Source: Prorocentrum cordatum
Taxonomy: Eukaryota; Sar; Dinophyceae; Prorocentrales; Prorocentraceae
NCBI GenBank assembly: GCA_963575745.1
Contig: CAUYUJ010012058.1
Span: forward strand, 379,267 to 443,266
Direction of reading: 5' to 3'
Length of the DNA: 64,000 nt
The notes below the pieces were generated by a model that searched no databases, was not told the DNA's origin, and saw nothing but the letters and a program-made list of their open reading frames with translations. A program made the translations under genes and the position numbers. Below are positions 19,228 through 50,684 of this stretch, piece after piece; within the stretch, counting starts at the first letter, position 1, and each line of letters starts with the position of its first letter.

Positions 19228-19264
19228 CTCGGGCCACCGTGGCTTGAGACAAAATGGCTACGGA
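19228..19264 (-). other. Spliced-leader relic on the minus strand, with a probable second partial relic
   Basis: The minus strand from 19,264 to 19,243 reads TCCGTAGCCATTTTGT then CTCAAG, which is 21 of 22 bases of the dinoflagellate SL. The next 15 bases (19,242-19,228, CCACGGTGGCCCGAG) align in register with the truncated SL form CCATTTTGGCTCAAG at 10 of 15 positions. A (TCC)n tract directly precedes it on the minus strand (19,265-19,315), and the AG of CCGTAG can act as trans-splice acceptor. Genomic SL at a gene's 5' end is the known signature of a reverse-transcribed trans-spliced mRNA. Confidence 0.8.
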
Positions 19265-22350: not shown

Positions 22351-22513
22351 TATATTAGGGGGCCACAAGCGAACCCTACCCCTGCCCCCCACGAGTTTTG
22401 AGGGGGAGGGTGGGGTTCACTTCGCTCGTGACCTCCCGAATCAAGTGAACCCCACCCTCCCCCTCAGAAATCGTGGGGGGTAGGGGTAGGGCTCGCATGT
22501 GGCCCCCTATATA
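22351..22513. mobile_element. Hairpin element with ~70-bp inverted arms
   Basis: Left arm 22,351-22,421 (TATATTAGGGGGCCACAAGC ...) and right arm 22,444-22,513 are reverse complements with only about six mismatches, separated by 22 bp. The whole element would fold into one long stem. Non-coding, MITE-like; no other copy seen. Confidence 0.8.
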
Positions 22514-25890: not shown

Positions 25891-25920
25891 CCGCCGATCT
25901 TTGCCCTCCTCTCGGGCACT

Positions 25921-26099
25921 CGCAAACATGGATCAAGGGCGCGTGGAATAGCGACGGGTCCCGTCTCCACAAGGGGAAGTCGCGGAGTCCCGCCGCCGAG
26001 CGGGGCGGCGCCGGCCGCATTTTTGGGGAGGGCACCTCCCCCGATCCATGGATTTGGCGACCGCGCGCCAAATCCACGGGCCGCTAATCCATGTTTGCG
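25921..26099. mobile_element. MITE-like element, family E, copy 1
   Basis: Termini CGCAAACATGGAT and ATCCATGTTTGCG form a 13-bp perfect inverted repeat. Inside, 26,045-26,078 is a near-palindrome (CCATGGATTTGGCG...CGCCAAATCC). The second copy is 40,199-40,551. Confidence 0.75.
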
Positions 26100-26325
26100 C
26101 GCCCTCGATCCTCAGGCTCCCTAATTTTCCGCGTCTAACACAAAAAAATCAAGGCGCAGGTCGCTCGCCGTTGTCGAACTCTGGGGCCCCCGCCCGGCTC
26201 CAGCGCCGTCAGACAGCAGTTCAGGCTCGAGCATTGGCCCCCCCGGGGGAGAGGCGCGGTTTTTCGGAGACCCCGCATTGAATGGGTCCTTCTCCGCATC
26301 TTGTTCCCCTCCCCTTCTCCCTCAG

Positions 26326-28614: not shown

Positions 28615-30448
28615 CAAGGCGGCCAGGCCACAGCGTGTGCAGCAGGTGTGGAGGCTGTGGACTGTCAACACGAGCGCCTGGAGCACGTTCCAGGGCTGCT
28701 TGGACTGGCAGAGGAGTTGGGGGGACGACGCTCGGCCCCATGTGTGTTTTGGTCAGGAACATCGGTTGAAGGATCTCACCAAAGTTCGCAGTGCGGCAGG
28801 CTGGCTCCGAGCTCGCGGCTATCACGGGGCTTTCGGCAGGGCGAAGTCCACGGGACAGCTAGCCACGGAGTCGTCAGGGGGAGTTCTGACGGCAGTGGCG
28901 TCACACATCGCTCTCGCAGGCTTGAGCCTCAAGCATCTTGGCGTCCAGGCTGGATATTTCTCGAGACTGAAGCTGATTCGGGCCAACATGGCCTTCCCCC
29001 ACGGCCTGCTGCTGGGCTCGGTCTACGGGTTCGTGGACGCGTCCGACAAGGTGTTCACATGGGACATGCTGGAGGACTTGGGAGTTTTTCTGCGTCGGTC
29101 CAGGCCACCGTGGATTCTTGCAGGGGACTTCAACTTGCCGCCAGATGATCTCAAGTTGTGCAAGTGGGTAGAGCTCCTGAAAGGCACGATCATGGCCCCA
29201 AGAGGTCCGACATGCTTCGCGCCCAAGGCGGGGTCCACGATTGACTACTACATTGTGAGTCAGGGGCTGGCCAACTTTGTCAGTGATGTTCGCACGATAT
29301 ATGGTACCCCCTCGGCGCCTCACGTCGCTGTTGCCATGCAGCTCAAGGGCCCCGCGCTGAACATCCCGCTCCACGTTCGCAGGACATGGGAGCCCTTCCC
29401 CGCTACCCTGCGGACGGGGCCTGTGCGGAAGCCTGCCGAGCACTGCTGGTCCTGGCCTGCAGGGGTACTCGCAGGGGTTCAGCTGGAGGATGCGTGGTGC
29501 CAGTGGCTGAGCAACATGGAGCTGGAGCTGTGCAACCAGTTCGACATCGTCGGAGCTGGGCAGGGAAGCTTCGTCGGCAGAGCTGACGGGTTCGAGCGTC
29601 GGCAGGTGCCTCTCTCCGTATCTGTGGAAAACGCGGCGTTGTCTGGCAGTGGGGCCCAGATGCGAGCCTGGAGGTCGCTAGATGCCATACTATCCAGGCT
29701 CCAGGCGCTCCAGGACGACACCGTAGGTGCTAGCGATGAGGACGTTGTGCAGCCGACCTCTATGTGTTCAGGTGGAGCTTGCGATCGTCGTGAGACGCAC
29801 ACGGGGGCGCAACCAGCTGCTCCCAGTGCCGAAGGGCTTAGCACCGAGGGTCCGCCGCTTTCCTTGGGAGCCATGGGCTTTGTCTTGCCAGGCTACACGT
29901 CGCCGCACTCGGGGCCGACGCCGCTGGCTGCTGCTGCGGCATGTTCGTCGATGTCGGCGTTTTCTTTGTCTCAGATGCCATCCCAGGTGGGCTCGGCTGA
30001 GAAGGCTGAGTGGGACTTCGCGGACTGCCCGCATGGGTGGGGGAGGCCTGTGCCTGCCTGCGAGGTCCGTTCGGCTGGAGCGGAGGTCCACTCGTCGACA
30101 GACCTGGCTCCTGCAGACCCCCTGGGCCGTGAAGGTGGCCAAGGCTTTAAACCAGGGGAGCGTCTCAGGGGCCAGGTCGGAAGGCAGCAGGGCCGCAAGG
30201 GACGTGTCCGTGGCGATACCCGTCTTCGCCTGCTGGAGGAGCTTGACCACCTCGACCTGTCGACGCTGACGGGGGTCAAGTCCGTGGAGTTCGACCTGCA
30301 CTCACTGCGCAGCGTTGCTGAAGCGGGTGGGGAGGATCTGGCCACCCTGTCGACCTACGTTCACCAAGCGGCTCTGGAGTGGAGGCGTCCCAGTCGGCGG
30401 CAAAGGAGCAGCTGCAGGAGTGGAGAGAGTGGGCCCAGTCTGCGGTGA
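28460..30448 (+). CDS. LINE ORF2 first part: apurinic-type endonuclease domain
   Basis: This EEP-family endonuclease nicks target DNA to prime reverse transcription. The domain runs from about 28,640 (QVWRLWTVNTSAW) to about 29,350. Catalytic motifs visible are GQEHRL (Glu codon 28,757), ILAGDFNLP (Asp 29,126), STIDYYIVS (Asp 29,243) and APHVAV (His 29,321). A linker of about 330 residues leads toward the RT. The frame is +1 relative to ORF1. The nearest in-frame ATG (28,460) lies 155 bp inside ORF1, so initiation there, reinitiation or a +1 shift are all possible; I took that ATG. The frame ends at 30,448, whereas protein-like sequence moves to the next frame near 30,380, after HQAALEW. One base gained or lost, or -1 frameshifting, is therefore needed to join the RT. 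Confidence 0.82.
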   Translation: MGTTSRLERRRSEPRQKPCELLLVLKPRQTPSGSCCTPRRPSGSSGAGRGFSKAARPQRVQQVWRLWTVNTSAWSTFQGCLDWQRSWGDDARPHVCFGQEHRLKDLTKVRSAAGWLRARGYHGAFGRAKSTGQLATESSGGVLTAVASHIALAGLSLKHLGVQAGYFSRLKLIRANMAFPHGLLLGSVYGFVDASDKVFTWDMLEDLGVFLRRSRPPWILAGDFNLPPDDLKLCKWVELLKGTIMAPRGPTCFAPKAGSTIDYYIVSQGLANFVSDVRTIYGTPSAPHVAVAMQLKGPALNIPLHVRRTWEPFPATLRTGPVRKPAEHCWSWPAGVLAGVQLEDAWCQWLSNMELELCNQFDIVGAGQGSFVGRADGFERRQVPLSVSVENAALSGSGAQMRAWRSLDAILSRLQALQDDTVGASDEDVVQPTSMCSGGACDRRETHTGAQPAAPSAEGLSTEGPPLSLGAMGFVLPGYTSPHSGPTPLAAAAACSSMSAFSLSQMPSQVGSAEKAEWDFADCPHGWGRPVPACEVRSAGAEVHSSTDLAPADPLGREGGQGFKPGERLRGQVGRQQGRKGRVRGDTRLRLLEELDHLDLSTLTGVKSVEFDLHSLRSVAEAGGEDLATLSTYVHQAALEWRRPSRRQRSSCRSGESGPSLR

Positions 30449-33400
30449 AAGCAGGTGGCCGTCGTGCTCACAGGTACCTGAAGGACCAGCCGCAGGTGAA
30501 AGGGCCCGCGGCTCCTGAGGGCTGGGCGCTGCAAGGGGACGCGGCCGTGCAGGCAATGCACACGGAGTGGCTGCAGTACTGGGGAGACGCCAAGGAGAGC
30601 ATCTCACAGATCCAGGCAGCAGTCGCGCAGGATGATGAGTTGGCCAGGCCGTCTGCTGAGCGCGTTCGTGCGGTATGCCGTTCCTTTCCTCACCAGGTGG
30701 GCTGCGGGGTGGACTGCGTGAACCCGCGCTCCTTCGACCTGCTCGACGACGACTTCATGGAGAGGCTCGTGGACCTCATGGTGCTGCGGGAGGCCGACCC
30801 GCAGCTATCGGACAGATGGCCGACGCTGATGGTCTTCTTGGGCAAGCCTGACGGCTCGGGAGTCAGGCCGATCGCCCTCGTCTGCTCCATCCTGCGTGTA
30901 TGGGGCAAGGTGCGGCGAGAGGAGGCCAAGCTCTGGGGGGGGCAGCACGCAGCTGGAGTCTTCTGGGGCGTGCGTGATCGTGAATGCGACAGAGCGGGCT
31001 GGGCGCACCAGACAATGGCGCACTACGCGCGCAGCAGGGGCATGCAGTCAGCTACGTTGGCCACGGACTTATACAAGTTTTACGAGCGCATATGTCACGC
31101 GGTTTTGTTTGCAGAGGCGGAGGCTGTGAAGTTCTCGACCAGGCTCTGTAGAGCGGCATGCTCGCTCTACTCGGGGCCGCGCGCGGTGTCCTTCAATGGC
31201 TGCGTCTCCGTGGTCTTCCACGCCTCAGGCACGGTGCTGGCGGGCTGCTCGCTCGCGACGTGCCTGACGAGAGTCCTGCTGTTCCGCCTGCTCACCAAGG
31301 TCGAGAGCGAGCACCCGACGTCGATGGTGAGGAATGTGATAGACGACATCAGTGTGCAGTCCGTCGGCACGAGCCTCCACGTCGTCAGGGAGTTGGGCGG
31401 CGTCGGGAGCAAGCTGATCGATGGGCTGCGCAGGCTGCGTCTTGTGCTGTCGGAGAAAAAATCACAGGTTCTAGCATCGTCGAAAGGGGTTGCCGAGGGA
31501 CTGGCCAGTGCGTGGAAGGCGTCATTCAAGAAAAAGGCTGTGATTCGGAGTCTGGGGACTGATTGGCAAGTGAGCTCTTCTAGGTTGGCCCCCATTGCCT
31601 CCACCAGAGTTAGGACTTGTATGCGGAGGTCGGCGCGCCTCCGCTCTCTGAGGCGCGCTGGGGCCTTCGTGGGGCACATCCAGAGAGCGGGTCCTCAGGC
31701 CTCGGCGTTGTGGGGGGCCTCGGCGAGAGGGCTTCCTTGGTCGCAGTTGAAAAGGATCCGCACTCAGGCCCTCTTGTCTCTGGCTCCTGCGAAGAAGGGG
31801 ACGTCTGTGGGTTTAAAACTCCGCACGTTTAAGCAGGGTAAAACCATGGACCCCGTTCCGTTGTATTTCAAACAGGTTGTTTTTGAATGGGCTCGGGCTG
31901 TCTGGGACGGACTCCCCAGCATAACGATCCTGCAGGCAGTTTTTGAGGACGCCGTTCGATCGCTTGCCACCACCAGTCGCCCGTGGTCGAGGGCGACGTC
32001 CCCTGCTCACGTGTTTGTGATTGCTTGTGGGGATCTGGGATGGGAAGCGAGATCGGCGCGCCTCATTGTTCTCTCGACGGGCGAGCAGGTTGACTTGCTC
32101 AGGCTCTCGCCGTCGGTTGCTGCCACTCTCGCCCAGCAGGCCGCCAGAGAGATGTCGGATTTTCGTGCCCTCGAGGCTCGTGTGGGTTCGTCGTCGTGGT
32201 GTCGTCCTGTGTTTTGGCAGCCGCTGGACTTCTTGTTCGCCAGGAAAAGCGATTCCTGGGACAGGACTCGTAAGAATTCTCTCAGGGCCGCGGTCTCGGG
32301 GACTCACTGGGCCCAGGACCGTCTGCAGCGGCGCGGCTTGGTGTCGTGCAACCTTTGCAGGCTGTGCTTGGGGGCCCCAGGGACCACGTTCCACCGTAGA
32401 TTTGTTTGTGAGGCTTGGGCTGCTGATCGCTCTCATTACTTGTCTGATGAAGCGTTAGCTGCAGCCACGCTAATTCGGCAGCTGGGTGACCCTGGGGAAT
32501 TTTTGGCTTCGGGCATTTTCCCGTCTCCCAGGGAGCTGGTCCCCCCGCCTCTTGGGTCCGAAAGGTGCCAGGTCTTCTGGATTCGGAGGCCCGAGGATGG
32601 CCTGTTATCTGGCAAACTTTTTACCGATGGCTCTGCCATTTTCCCCTCGGACCCGCTCCTAAGAAGAGCAGGGTGGGCGGTGATCTCGGTCGATGACACT
32701 GGCGCCATGATCTCTGGAGCTTTCGGCCCCGTCCCGTGGGATGTTGCTCCTCTCCAGCTCGCCAAGGATGGCGAGGATTATGCGTATCGGATGCTCGGCC
32801 AGATTGCTTTGGACCCCGAGGGAGTTTGGACCGATTGTGCAGCTACGATTTCTTGTGCTCGGTCGAGAGTTCGCTCCACGAGTGCCCGTTGTGGCCAGGC
32901 TCACATGTGGACCACTGTGCATGCGGCCTTCGAGGATGGGCTGGTTGTCCATAAAACGAAGGCCCACTGCGCGGAGGCGGACGTGGAGCGAGGAGTCACC
33001 ATTCGTTGGGAGCGTAAGGCTAACGCCATTGCCGACGCCCTCTCGAAGCGATGGGCAGGTAAGCATCCATCGGTCGATCAGGCCGCCCGTGAAATCGCTG
33101 GTTTAAGACTCTTGGGGCGGGAGTTGGGCCGGTGGGTGGGGCGGCAGGGGCTTCTGATGCGGGAGCGGGGGTGGGAGGACTCGGAGGGCCTGCCTGATAA
33201 GCGCCTGGAGCCTGGTTTGGGCCCTCGCCAGGGCCGCCCCCTTGAGCCCCCCATCCCCCCCGTGTCTGTGCGGTTCAGGGCCGCGCTTTCCGCCATTGCC
33301 CATTCGGGGCCGTGTGACCCCGAGCTGTCAATTTTGATGAGGCTGTCTCAGCATAACTTGCGAGTGTGCCATGTTTTTGATCAGACGGGAGCATCCGTTG

Positions 33401-33825
33401 TCTCCGCCCCGCGTATTGTGTGTTGTATTTCGTGTGGGGCGTACGCGCGGGGCGGGGTCAGGGAGCTCGCCGTTCGAGAGTGTCACGGTCACAACGTGGG
33501 GAAGGGGCTCAAGCAGCAGCGATCACGGTTGCTCGCGGGCCTCTTTCCCAGGTGGCTGAGTAGGTACAAAGGCTGGAGTGTGAGTTGTCTCGAGCGCCCC
33601 GTCCCTGGAGATCTCCTGGACTTGGCTCGGGCGATTCTCGACCGTCCCCAGGCGCGTGCGACGGTGCCTGCCTCCAGAGCCGTTTTCCCCAGGGGACCGC
33701 CATGGCAGGTGCCCATGGGGCGAGGGCCTCTCCTCGCCCGCTTCGGCCTCACGGTGGACTCGCTCCCGTTCTGGGAGCAGGAGGCCGCCCGTCGGGGCGC
33801 GGGGGAGGAGGAGGAGTTGGTTTAA
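30379..33825 (+). CDS. LINE ORF2 second part: reverse transcriptase and RNase H (1148 aa)
   Basis: It synthesises element cDNA at the nicked target. The frame is open from 30,322; the first usable codon is GTG at 30,379, so it probably continues the endonuclease frame rather than starting anew. RT motifs: LGKPDGSGVRPIALV (30,838), motif A ATDLYKFYE (Asp 31,066), motif B AGCSLAT, motif C VIDDISV (Asp pair 31,342-31,347), then LRLVLSEKKSQVL. A zinc knuckle CNLCRLC...HRRFVC lies near 32,350-32,410. RNase H: FTDGSAI (Asp 32,626), GEDYAYR (Glu 32,773), WTDCAA (Asp 32,833), KTKAHC (His 32,965) and ANAIADALSKRW (Asp 33,034). A second Cys motif (CCISCGAY...C) lies at 33,420-33,485. It ends in TAA. 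All catalytic acids are intact. Confidence 0.92.
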   Translation: MEASQSAAKEQLQEWREWAQSAVKAGGRRAHRYLKDQPQVKGPAAPEGWALQGDAAVQAMHTEWLQYWGDAKESISQIQAAVAQDDELARPSAERVRAVCRSFPHQVGCGVDCVNPRSFDLLDDDFMERLVDLMVLREADPQLSDRWPTLMVFLGKPDGSGVRPIALVCSILRVWGKVRREEAKLWGGQHAAGVFWGVRDRECDRAGWAHQTMAHYARSRGMQSATLATDLYKFYERICHAVLFAEAEAVKFSTRLCRAACSLYSGPRAVSFNGCVSVVFHASGTVLAGCSLATCLTRVLLFRLLTKVESEHPTSMVRNVIDDISVQSVGTSLHVVRELGGVGSKLIDGLRRLRLVLSEKKSQVLASSKGVAEGLASAWKASFKKKAVIRSLGTDWQVSSSRLAPIASTRVRTCMRRSARLRSLRRAGAFVGHIQRAGPQASALWGASARGLPWSQLKRIRTQALLSLAPAKKGTSVGLKLRTFKQGKTMDPVPLYFKQVVFEWARAVWDGLPSITILQAVFEDAVRSLATTSRPWSRATSPAHVFVIACGDLGWEARSARLIVLSTGEQVDLLRLSPSVAATLAQQAAREMSDFRALEARVGSSSWCRPVFWQPLDFLFARKSDSWDRTRKNSLRAAVSGTHWAQDRLQRRGLVSCNLCRLCLGAPGTTFHRRFVCEAWAADRSHYLSDEALAAATLIRQLGDPGEFLASGIFPSPRELVPPPLGSERCQVFWIRRPEDGLLSGKLFTDGSAIFPSDPLLRRAGWAVISVDDTGAMISGAFGPVPWDVAPLQLAKDGEDYAYRMLGQIALDPEGVWTDCAATISCARSRVRSTSARCGQAHMWTTVHAAFEDGLVVHKTKAHCAEADVERGVTIRWERKANAIADALSKRWAGKHPSVDQAAREIAGLRLLGRELGRWVGRQGLLMRERGWEDSEGLPDKRLEPGLGPRQGRPLEPPIPPVSVRFRAALSAIAHSGPCDPELSILMRLSQHNLRVCHVFDQTGASVVSAPRIVCCISCGAYARGGVRELAVRECHGHNVGKGLKQQRSRLLAGLFPRWLSRYKGWSVSCLERPVPGDLLDLARAILDRPQARATVPASRAVFPRGPPWQVPMGRGPLLARFGLTVDSLPFWEQEAARRGAGEEEELV

Positions 33826-34333: not shown

Positions 34334-34549
34334 CCGTACGCTGGGTGTTTGCGAGACCCGACTCTTCTCGGGCGTGGCTAGGACGAGGATGCGTCCGTTA
34401 CGGAGCGTTGCAAAACGCTCCCACAACGTTTCGCAACGCTCTGGAAAAGCTGCGGCGCCTGAGACATCCATCCCCCAGAGCCGCCGGACCTCAGAGATTC
34501 CCGACTAATCCTCACTCGATTTTCTCCTCGTTTTGGCTTCGTCTTTTCT
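34334..34549. other. No gene seen
   Basis: Short unique spacer between the LINE host repeat and a family C copy; repeated words around ACGGAGCGTTGCAAAACGCT only. Confidence 0.35.
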
Positions 34550-34720
34550 CCATTGTTCAGGAAGGAGAAACACAGAGACAGAGACACAATTCATCGTCGA
34601 TTCCCCCGAGAATATGGGAAAATATGGGAAGGGGAGGGAAGACGAAAACCTAGAAAATATTTGAAAATATGGGGAATCCTGGGATTTGTGTGTATTTATC
34701 TGTGTGTCCTTGGGCCCTCA
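34550..34720 (+). repeat. Family C dispersed repeat, copy 4
   Basis: TGTTCAGGAAGGAGAAACAC ... ATTCATCGTCGATTCC ... GTGTGTCCTTGGGCCC closely matches 7,100-7,275. A weakly coding-like stretch (34,722-34,836, RVEADAARRAFEARRGRF) follows directly. Confidence 0.65.
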
Positions 34721-34837
34721 TCCCTGCCGCTGCGCGTGGAGGCCGACGCTGCCAGGAGGGCCTTCGAGGCGAGGCGGGGGCGCTTCCGGACCGTGGAGGA
34801 GCTCGACGCCTGGAGGGAGGGCGAGAAGGCATCGCTG

Positions 34838-34872
34838 TCCTCCTCCGTCCTCCTCGTCCTCGTCCCTCCCTT

Positions 34873-34911
<39 letters not shown>

Positions 34912-34965
34912 TGCCCCTTCTCCCCATCCTCCTCGTCCTCCTCGTCCTCCTCCTCCTCTTCCTCC
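34838..34965 (+). promoter_or_regulatory. TCC/TCG polypyrimidine tract before the SL relic
   Basis: CCTCCTCGTCCTC and (GTC)n triplets end in CTCCTCTTCCTCC directly against CCGTAG. It fits the pyrimidine tract of a trans-splice acceptor whose AG is at 34,971-34,972. Confidence 0.6.
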
Positions 34966-35002
34966 TCCGTAGCCATTTTGGCTCAAGCCATTTTGGCTCA
35001 AG
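34966..35002 (+). other. Tandem spliced-leader relics (full SL plus 15-nt truncated SL)
   Basis: 34,966-34,987 is a perfect 22-base dinoflagellate SL (TCCGTAG, then CCATTTTGGCTCAAG). It is followed without a gap by CCATTTTGGCTCAAG again (34,988-35,002), the form produced when the AG inside the SL itself is used as acceptor. This is the established signature of repeated mRNA recycling in dinoflagellates: trans-spliced mRNA reverse-transcribed into the genome, transcribed, trans-spliced again and reinserted. It marks the 5' end of the retrogene that follows. Confidence 0.95.
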
Positions 35003-35054
35003 GGGCCTTCGCGCCGCGCACATCGTGGGGGCGCAGCGGCGCGGAGCCGATGGC

Positions 35055-35234
35055 ATGGGGCGACCTTCCAGAGGCCGGCGGGGCCCCGTGGAGGCAAAGG
35101 CCAGCGCGCCGGTCGCCCGGGAGGCAGCGATGGTCGCAGCAGCAGTGGCAGCCGCGGTGGCCCCAGCGGTGGCCGCAGCTGTGAGAGCGGTTGCCGACGC
35201 TGCGACGGCGCCAAGGCCGAACGCCAGGCAGACG
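35055..35234 (+). CDS. SL-headed retrogene, exon 1 (60 aa, Ala-rich)
   Basis: The ATG at 35,055 lies 52 bp after the SL relics. A nearer ATG at 35,050 opens a frame with Trp/Arg/Gln-rich reading that stops at 35,184, so I prefer 35,055. Residues 1-20 are basic (GRPSRGRRG), and residues about 20-48 are an Ala/Val-rich helix (AAMVAAAVAAAVAPAVAAA), which could be a targeting or membrane-associated segment. The exon ends ...NARQT with donor ACG|GT at 35,235, inside the target duplication of the inserted element. Splicing to 35,405 is in phase 0. No family is recognised. Confidence 0.55.
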
Positions 35235-35404
35235 GTCACCACCCACCAAGCCACCCCAACCCATCCCGAAGGCTTCAAATTGACCTCCATTTCCAGTGGG
35301 GGGGGGGTCGGGGAACATCGAGGAAATGCATATGGAAGCCGTACCCCCCCCAACCCGAAATTCGGGTCTTCGGGTTGGGTTGGGGTGGTCGGGTAGGTAG
35401 TCAG
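35235..35404 (+). mobile_element. Introner: inverted-repeat element acting as a GT-AG intron
   Basis: The direct repeat CAGACGG occurs at 35,229-35,235 and 35,402-35,408. Between the copies lies a non-coding element of about 166 bp whose ends are inverted repeats (CCACCCCAACCCATCCCGAAG on the left, its near-complement TTCGGGTTGGGTTGGGGTGG on the right). The target duplication supplies both splice sites: GT from CAGACG|GTCACC and AG from GTCAG|ACGGCC. Removing 35,235-35,404 joins ...CAG ACG to ACG GCC ATG in frame. This matches the introner mechanism described for dinoflagellates and other algae, in which a transposable element creates an intron on insertion. Confidence 0.78.
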
Positions 35405-35741
35405 ACGGCCATGCCATCGGTGCGGCCGTCGCAAGCGCCACCAGTCCTGGCCATCAAGGACGCAGAGGTCCCCGGAGCAGCTTTCGACCTCTCCGCGCGG
35501 GACGCCGAGGGGGGGGGCGCAGCTCGAGGCGCTCACCAGGCCGGCCGCTTGCCCCGCCCCCAGGCCACTGGATGGGGCCGCCGCTGGCGCGGGCGCTGCT
35601 GGGATGGCATGGCGCGCGGCCGCCAAGTCCCCCGCAGGCGAGGCTCAGGTCGCGCAGTGCCAGGGCGCGTTCCAGGAGGAGCCGGAAGGTGAGAAGGCGA
35701 TGAAGCAGCAGGAGTCCTCGGAGCCGCTGGTGGTGGACTAG
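35405..35741 (+). CDS. SL-headed retrogene, exon 2 first part (frameshift at a G run)
   Basis: The frame continues from exon 1 as TAMPSVRPSQAPPVLAIKDA and EVPGAAFDLSARDAE to a run of nine G at 35,509-35,517. Beyond it, protein-like sequence is in the next frame (AQLEALTRPAA, then SPAGEAQVAQCQGAFQEEPE and KAMKQQESSEPLVV) to a TAG at 35,739. One G fewer would restore a single frame, so this is either a sequencing or assembly error in the homopolymer or a real disabling indel. No domain recognised. Confidence 0.45.
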
Positions 35742-36337
35742 CCTACCTGGGGTGCCCTGTGCGCACCGAGTGGTACGACCTCGCTGACAGCGACGGCGAG
35801 GAGGAGGGCAACAAAGTGGATAGCTACGACTTCAAGGAGCAGTGCGAGCGGAAGGCCGAGGATGGCGACATCTTCAAGCCCGAGGTTCACCAGGTGGAGG
35901 AGAGCACGAGGCAGTGCTACGAGCGCCAGCGCCAGGACCACGACTTCAGCGGAGTCCTGCTGGCCAACGCGGAGGTGTTCCTCAAGACCAAGGCGGTTCG
36001 GGAGCAGCGCTGCGCGCAGTGGCGCCTGGGCAGTGACACCATCGTGGGAGTGGTCGGGCAGAAATGCGCGGAGTCGGAGGGCCTTCCCGAGATTCCGCTC
36101 TTCCCGTCTCTTGAGGAGGTGCTGGACGACGAGCCGGCCAAGAACGAGACCCAGAAGACCCAGGAAATGCACGATCTGCACAGCGTCGGCATCGTCAACT
36201 TCCTGGAGCAAGTCGGGGAGCAGGAGGTGAGCAAGATCATCCAGGAGCAGGGAGGGGGCTGCACGTGGGTGGAGCTCCTGAGCTGGGTGAATAAGAACTT
36301 CGAGAACGATCTGCCAGGATATATTCGGGATCTCTGA
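35691..36337 (+). CDS. SL-headed retrogene, exon 2 last part, acidic C-terminal region
   Basis: A third frame reads convincing protein from about 35,745 to the TGA at 36,335: RTEWYDLADSDGEEEGNKVD, FKEQCERKAEDGDIFKPEVH, LEEVLDDEPAKNETQKTQEM and a final GCTWVELLSWVNKNFENDLP. Composition is acidic with Lys/Glu-rich helices, and codon use is strongly GC-ending. The shift from the preceding part lies near 35,720-35,745, with a second indel or an unrecognised intron there. No known family. An SL, an introner and a long conserved-looking frame suggest a once functional expressed gene; the two frame breaks make a pseudogene equally possible. Confidence 0.6.
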
Positions 36338-36760
36338 GTCGGAACTTGACTGGGGCGCCCTGATATTCATCAGTTGCGAGTTGTTTTGGGATTTTTCGCA
36401 TCCGGTATCTGAATGTGTTTGTGAAGCACGTTGTGACGCAGGACAGTCTGCCTCAACTTGGTTGGCTCGTGCCAGAAGATCAGCATTCAGGAATTGAATG
36501 TGTACGCGAAGCAGTTCGCGATTACTTCAAGAGGACGCGAAAACGAGTTTTCGTGAGCCGCGGAAGGCATGAGTGGCCTCGCGGGGGTAGCAGCTTCGTG
36601 GGTTTCTTTGCGGGGCCCTTCCCCTCCGCGTTGGTTTTCCGGTCCCTTGGGCCCCCGTCCGCCCCGTAGAAAACATTGGGGGAGCTGCGGCCCCCCTGGG
36701 GTCGGGGCGGGCCCGACGGCGCGCGCCGAGCAGGTCCTCTGACGGACTTGGCACAGTCAG
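36338..36760 (+). other. Probable 3' untranslated region and spacer
   Basis: AT-richer sequence follows the stop to about 36,450, in keeping with a 3' UTR; no AATAAA is needed in dinoflagellates. No further gene seen. Confidence 0.35.
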
Positions 36761-36763
36761 TTC

Positions 36764-37013
36764 CCTCCGTTCCCTCCTCTTCCTCCTCCTTGTCCTCCTC
36801 CTCCTCCTCCTTGTCCTCCTCCTCCTCCTCCTCCTCCTCCTCCTCCTCCTCCCCGTCCTCCCTCCATCCCGTCATCCCTCCTTCTCCTCCTCCTGCTCCT
36901 CATCCTCCCTCCTCTTTCCTTCCCTCCCCCCATCCCTCCCTCTCCTTCTCGTCTTCCTCCCCCCTCCTCCTCATCCCCCTCGTCCTCCTCGTTCTCCTCC
37001 TCCTCCCCATCTC
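36764..37013 (+). repeat. (TCC)n polypyrimidine tract
   Basis: TCC/TTG-interrupted pyrimidine tract of about 250 bp. Confidence 0.93.
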
Positions 37014-50001: not shown

Positions 50002-50176
50002 CTAGACCTGGCTTGTCCCTCCCCCTCGTCCCCTCTCTCGGCGGCGACATCCGAGACCCGACCCTCGCCGCTCCACCAGTTAGGCAACTGACTGGGCGGG
50101 CGGCCGGGGTGGGGCTCGGAAGGCGTCGAACACAACATGTGGCGGAGTTCAAACCCAACCCCCGTCTCTCAGCCAC

Positions 50177-50270
50177 GCGCAGAGGGGGGTGGGGGGAGGG
50201 GGGGGGCTTCTTAGAAGCCGCCTGCTTCTAAGAAGCCCCCCCCCCCCTCCCCCCACCCCCTTGTGCGCGC
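50177..50270. repeat. Long G/C-run hairpin
   Basis: GGGGTGGGGGGAGGG and CTTCTTAGAAGC on the left are mirrored by GCTTCTAAGAAGC and CCCTCCCCCCACCCC on the right, with only a 5-bp loop (CGCCT). Arms exceed 40 bp. Confidence 0.85.
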
Positions 50271-50684
50271 CGCCAAGTCTCCCATCGATTCAGGAGACAT
50301 CCATGGTTGGTGGGGCACGGTTCGGATGTCGCCACCTATCCCCGGCGCCCCCCGAGCCCCCCCCTTTCCCCCTGAGCCGTTTCTGCCCCGACGGGGGCGC
50401 GCGCCAGCGGGCCAGGGAGGCCCGGCGCCCCCGGCCGCCTTCGGCCGCGCGCCCGCGCGCGCGCAGAAGCCATGCTCCACCCCCAGCGCAGCGCGCCCCG
50501 GCCGCTGTCCTGGAGCGACGGCGGCTTCGCGGACCTCGGGGGGGCCTTGGTTTGGAATCCGATCGGGGTCTTGTTGGGGTCCCATTCGGCTGGTTGTTGG
50601 GATCCCGCGCGGAGGGGTCCAGGGGCGGGATGTCGCTTCCAAGGGGGGCAAAGCGACATGGTTTCGCCGAAAAGTACAGGGAGG
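50271..50684. other. No gene seen
   Basis: Very GC-rich unique sequence, open in several frames, no domain. Confidence 0.35.

Follow-up and report, generated by a model that had tools for sequence, protein, structure and literature searches.

The window, by which we mean the whole stretch of Prorocentrum cordatum DNA that was analyzed (64,000 nucleotides), has a G+C content of 61.2%; the published mean for the genome of this species is 59.7% (PMC10666404). At the locus described here, it carries a decayed retrocopy of a coding sequence that is interrupted by a short element with inverted ends. The features are listed below, with the evidence for each in brackets.

34967..34987, plus strand: full-length DinoSL relic (exact 21-mer; 0 matches in 100 shuffles)
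34988..35002, plus strand: truncated second DinoSL relic of 15 nt, in tandem with the first (seen as a 21-mer match at 34982-35002 with 3 mismatches)
35050..36349, plus strand: decayed retrocopy of a coding sequence related to protein P0001, interrupted by the element (paralog alignments, protein similarity)
35182..35184, plus strand: stop codon that closes the frame of the homologous ATG before the element (translation)
35231..35235, no strand: left target-site duplication GACGG, whose last G is the G of a possible 5' GT (sibling loci and paralogs)
35235..35404, plus strand: span of 170 nt removable by GT-AG splicing, predicted only (sequence)
35236..35403, plus strand: MITE-type element of 168 bp with T...A termini (borders from 30 and 28 loci; absent from 3 of 3 close paralogs)
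35236..35271, plus strand: left terminal inverted repeat (arm 35238-35271, extended outward by comparing the two ends of the family consensus)
35368..35403, minus strand: right terminal inverted repeat (arm 35368-35401, extended outward in the same way)
35404..35408, no strand: right target-site duplication GACGG, whose first G is the G of a possible 3' AG (sibling loci and paralogs)

The host sequence and its empty-site relatives

The retroposed origin of the host, proposed in a sequence-only reading of this DNA, is confirmed by the two DinoSL relics (34967-34987 and 34988-35002), which lie upstream of position 35050, the homologue of the P0001 start. A full SL followed by a shorter relic is the signature described for repeated retroposition (PMC12014239, PMC6050394). 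The closest protein relative of the host is P0001, an unnamed P. cordatum protein (90% identity for a 214-residue query). When P0001 itself served as a second protein query, only P0001 was recovered among the 8,000 candidates scored, and a Pfam search with the two host open reading frames of the window gave 0 matches. Elsewhere in the window, a DinoSL-like site with one mismatch was seen at 19243-19263 on the minus strand and might mark a further retrocopy. An open frame of 1,167 codons at 30322-33825 (plus strand) is LINE-like and ends about 1.1 kb upstream of the retrocopy; its match to a reverse transcriptase (PF00078) is weak, with an E of 2.4e-4, below the curated cut-off.

In a search with the DNA 3' of the element, four close copies were found in the genome, namely the window and three paralogs on contigs C13550 (95%), C3242 (94%), and C5496 (92%); five more matches were short and weaker. 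The four copies are roughly equidistant (4.9-5.9%), with 24-29 private substitutions each, in a star-like pattern. A single full-length DinoSL, in one case with a mismatch, is present in two of the paralogs, where its upstream junction lies at a different point; the remaining paralog has none. CCT/CTC arrays flank the copies over the compared stretch (window positions 34400-36900), and beyond these arrays the matches are confined to low-complexity sequence or another repeat. Since the DinoSL joins differ and the outer matches are of this kind, the four copies probably arose by separate events. The arrays on both sides of the four host copies (34838-34966 and 36763-36870 in the window; loci L090, L091, and L092) may have served as insertion sites or may belong to the unit that was copied. 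In the L092 paralog, the 3' part, the counterpart of window positions 36589-36692, is swapped for unrelated sequence, perhaps by another insertion.

Through the site of the element, the alignments of all three paralogs are continuous, with a single CAGACGG and no element. Insertion is demonstrated by these three empty sites; as read from the alignments, they would mean insertion into the window copy or, less simply, precise loss from the other three. On the same comparison, the insertion is younger than the split of the window copy from its three empty-site paralogs. The earlier reading had held that the element must post-date retroposition. This stands with respect to that split, whereas the insertion need not be younger than the last retroposition of the window copy itself, since in unspliced RNA the element would have travelled with the copy. 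Retained introns have been reported in dinoflagellate retrogenes (PMC6050394), and this precedent speaks for an inherited intron, that is, an element brought in by retroposition of unspliced RNA. Against such an origin, the three close paralogs lack the element and keep a single copy of the target, and no second element-bearing copy occurs among the four close copies found, so that we consider inheritance quite improbable.

The frame of the host is broken in several places. From the homologous ATG at 35050, the frame of the window copy runs for 44 codons and stops before the element, in the spliced, unspliced, and empty forms alike; a reading frame dependent on this intron was therefore rejected. 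Four other frame-changing length differences separate the window copy from the three paralogs (near 35104, 35470, 35509, and 35691), and it thus lacks the intact coding sequence that marks a DinoSL retrogene. The paralog frames from the same ATG reach 171, 97, and 171 codons, compared with 360 residues in the P0001 model. In the 3' part (35753 on), differences between the window copy and the three paralogs fall on the three codon positions as 11/8/12, 14/7/12, and 13/11/11, a near-even distribution as would be expected without selection. Judging from these comparisons, the host most likely belongs to a retropseudogene family, and less likely is a living gene affected by assembly errors. Single-base homopolymer length differences could in part be assembly errors, and the existence of the P0001 model for a paralog means that the gene family may not be entirely dead. 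In this model (paralog L090, contig C13550), a stretch of about 40 nt with GT and AG at its ends appears to be passed over where the DNA frame shifts, so that the model may include an artificial mini-intron.

The element family and its five-base-pair duplication

The inverted arms at 35238-35271 and 35368-35401 were found as 34 nt with 82% complementarity, between two copies of GACGG, and the terminal repeats measure about 36 bp once extended to the element ends. The 21-mer core of the inverted ends occurs, at up to 3 mismatches, only at these two sites in the window, with 0.01 expected. Inverted ends had been noticed before, and in this respect the earlier description was correct.

We searched the 4.13-Gb assembly (21,875 contigs) with the 180-bp stretch and scored 40 copies among 2,087 candidates. 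A first set of 30 oriented loci, including the window, comprises the closest matches to the window copy. For a second set, 30 loci were chosen by the exact left end preceded by GNNNG, of which 28 remained after two were dropped for want of a right end. Together, the sets comprise 58 loci, the window and 57 siblings. The exact 28-nt left end alone has 6,435 matches in the assembly, compared with 0 for a reversed-pattern control, and is preceded by GNNNG in 1,244 cases. A scan of viral contigs for the inverted end gave 0 matches. Because three of three close paralogs show the empty site and thousands of siblings exist, the element is real and beyond chance.

The borders are set by comparison with the siblings. 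A T stands at the point matching 35236 in all 30 first-set loci and an A at the point matching 35403 in 29 of them; the terminal A is present in 25 of the 28 second-set loci. The 5-bp repeat is exact in 21 of 30 first-set loci and within one mismatch in 27; the corresponding numbers for the second set are 17 and 21 of 28, which leaves 7 loci without the repeat at this tolerance. Position by position across the 30 loci including the window, flank positions -5 to -1 match in 25-27, position -6 in 9, and position -7 in 20. The duplication had been taken for a 7-bp CAGACGG. We correct it to the 5-bp GACGG: the exact 7-bp form is present in only 7 of 30 and 4 of 28 loci, and arises only where a CA in the target precedes the duplication and meets the element's own ..TCA end. 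A C two bases ahead of the duplication occurs in 20 of 30 first-set loci versus 12 of 28 in the second set. The duplication of 7-8 bp that the earlier reading had foreseen for siblings is in fact one of 5 bp.

Mean pairwise divergence among the 30 first-set copies is 3.4%, and 8 of the 168 sites in the window copy depart from their consensus; neither value is a fair sample of the family, because these copies are the best matches to the window copy. With its 168 bp, terminal inverted repeats of about 36 bp, fixed 5-bp duplication with empty sites, high copy number, and sequence homogeneity, the element has the marks of a MITE.

The window itself may hold further elements of this type. One scan gave eight candidates with inverted repeats and a duplication, of which five fit the 5-bp, T...A design. 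Besides the element at 35236-35403, apparently the same design is seen at 152-364 (TTGGG), 22356-22509 (TATAT), 25912-26108 (TCCTC), and 50169-50276 (GTCTC; G-rich and less certain), each with T...A termini. Elements at 1110-1357 (GATCGA) and 2139-2291 (GCTGCG) have 6-bp duplications and are of a different type.

Splice-ready borders and the question of an intron

At the borders of the element, GT is found at 35235-35236 and AG at 35403-35404, as at the borders of an introner. The pair arises because the element runs from T to A and the duplication begins and ends with G, so that each dinucleotide is split over a border: the G of the left duplication joins the first T of the element, and the last A of the element joins the G of the right duplication. 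The claim that the splice sites come from the target duplication thus holds for one base of each; the left copy does not supply the whole GT, nor the right copy the whole AG. The predicted 170-nt intron lies within a 173-nt insertion, so that splicing would leave 3 nt, with ACG standing twice and one codon more than at the empty site. From the sequence of the element, the same one-codon outcome follows for any GNNNG duplication.

What had been described, a transposable element with splice-competent borders inside a retrocopied sequence, is therefore what we find. That it acts as an intron is not borne out: the host is frame-broken elsewhere, and its differences look neutral. Excision would keep the reading frame locally (+3 nt), as had been stated, but translation from the homologous ATG would terminate after 44 codons, before the element is reached. 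An introner would be expected to interrupt a functional frame that splicing restores; here the upstream stop is read in either case, and further frame differences follow downstream.

We consider it probable that a high-copy MITE entered one of the four decaying copies of a retroposed gene that are scattered through the genome, and thereby made a GT...AG pair. In the series of events that we propose for this Prorocentrum-type genome, a putative transposase would have moved a family member by cut-and-paste into one of these copies, and the insertion would have duplicated the 5 bp GACGG. The T...A element and the G...G duplication would then have yielded GT...AG, with the dinucleotides straddling both borders, and the element, if transcribed, would be spliceable, with exactly one codon added. 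Because the host is a pseudogene, the insertion in the window is most likely without coding consequence.

Two further readings differ in what the splice-ready borders mean. The element might be a functional introner that is spliced from a living retrogene. The GT-AG at its borders and the gain of exactly 3 nt agree with this, as do the reported enrichment in P. cordatum of introns with inverted repeats at both ends (PMC10666404) and the known cases of splice sites recruited from duplications and of codon-adding introners (PMC9860276). The broken, neutral-looking host speaks against it, and so, weakly, does the context of the siblings, where frames across the site, inspected by eye in the longer sibling loci (31 of 57), were in no case clearly coding. 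A Pfam search with 20 of 70 filtered flank open reading frames likewise gave 0 matches. Both results have little power, since only a minor share of such a large genome is exonic and Pfam domains are absent from many dinoflagellate proteins. A codon-usage test on the sibling flanks did not flag even the window gene itself. One flank, at locus L018, gave a first impression of coding sequence that was not upheld on inspection. On balance, we regard a functional introner as unlikely.

Alternatively, GT and AG could be a chance by-product of a G...G duplication, and the family a plain intergenic MITE that has nothing to do with splicing. Of the duplications at the 27 good first-set loci, 20 have G as their first base, 11 have it as their last, and 9 have it at both ends, close to the approximately 8 expected under independence; the second set, selected for duplications starting with G, was left out of this count. 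This agreement and the non-coding appearance of the inspected flanks favor a fortuitous pair. A neutral intergenic MITE would not be expected to show the orientation coherence described below (31 of 36 neighboring pairs), yet this coherence is common to other repeats and is perhaps a general property of the genome. To us, the fortuitous reading has slightly less than an even chance. The window illustrates that a GT-AG pair alone does not prove an intron.

Shared orientation of repeats and relation to known introners

Strand pairs were taken from the first 100 of the 6,435 left-end places. Neighboring copies on one contig lie on the same strand in 31 of the 36 listed pairs (p of about 1e-5), in 19 of 22 when one pair per contig is counted, and in 23 of 28 when pairs under 20 kb are excluded; on three further contigs with GNNNG-preceded copies, all 4 pairs likewise share a strand. 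Repeats of other kinds next to the element behave alike, with 171 locus pairs in the same orientation only, 43 in the opposite only, and 34 in both. Counted by family (50 repeat families, 57 loci), 158 of 184 members are in the majority orientation, compared with 127.5 expected and a largest value of 142 in 5,000 simulations, whereas two-member families alone show little (13 of 20). The polarity is thus not special to this element, as adjacent other repeats are also coherent, and it reaches up to hundreds of kilobases along contigs. The orientation of CTC arrays relative to the element is balanced (21 versus 19 of 41 loci with arrays, one tie).

In the orientation of the element, the flanks have more T than A in 46 of 58 loci, and more G than C in only 35. 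Kinase matches (131 places), compared by eye with the listed copies, agree in strand on all three shared contigs (C7202, C1669, and C1003), which proves nothing alone. Together, orientation coherence, T over A skew, and kinase-strand agreement suggest that many copies perhaps sit in transcribed units in sense orientation, and for this reason splicing of copies in other genes is possible. The polarity may reflect transcription along unidirectional gene blocks, which have been described for dinoflagellates (PMC7789003, PMC11453091), insertion coupled to transcription or replication, or duplicated composite blocks. More speculatively, the whole class of MITEs with a 5-bp duplication and T...A ends could be a generator of one-codon introns at GNNNG targets, whose copies survive or insert in sense along such blocks and give the repeats their common polarity. 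We hold this to be rather unlikely; if true, every GNNNG duplication would automatically yield a frame-keeping GT-AG intron with one added codon. Should the shared orientation stem from transcription, the direction of genes in very large dinoflagellate genomes could be mapped from the orientation of repeats alone.

With its three empty sites in the same genome, the locus shows cleanly how a single transposition event makes a ready GT-AG pair, and thousands of copies offer a test of the simple 5-bp rule, by which a G...G duplication adds one codon. Among open-licence articles in PMC, we found none that brings together introners, retrogenes, and dinoflagellates. The case belongs to a known kind of element, and its useful parts are the empty-site series and the one-codon rule. 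MITEs, the non-autonomous TIR DNA transposons, are likewise short, with TIRs, a TSD, no coding capacity, and thousands of copies; the window element, with its 5-bp TSD and T...A ends, is placed among them by structure. The DinoSL-tagged retrogenes (PMC6050394, PMC12014239) resemble the window copy in its full SL and 15-nt relic, whereas the frame of the latter has decayed and is interrupted by a MITE.

Introners have been described as TIR/TSD transposons whose splice sites come wholly or partly from the duplication and which sometimes add codons, in many algae including Symbiodinium (PMC9860276, Gozashti et al. 2022). They abound in dinoflagellate genomes (PMC11453091, where Roy et al. 2023 Curr Biol is cited, as it is in PMC10666404), and P. 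cordatum introns are reported to be enriched in introner elements (Dougan et al. 2023, PMC10666404), in a search that required, near intron ends, direct repeats of 3-5 nt together with inverted repeats of 8-20 nt. The window element shares with the latter the species and the inverted repeats at both ends. With the algal and dinoflagellate introners (PMC9860276), it has in common the short length, high copy number, TIRs, TSDs, and splice sites recruited in part from the TSD, and its predicted gain of 3 nt has a counterpart in codon-adding cases such as that of Aureococcus (+12 bp). It differs from them in its 5-bp TSD, in both dinucleotides being split over the borders, in its pseudogene host, and in splicing that is only predicted.
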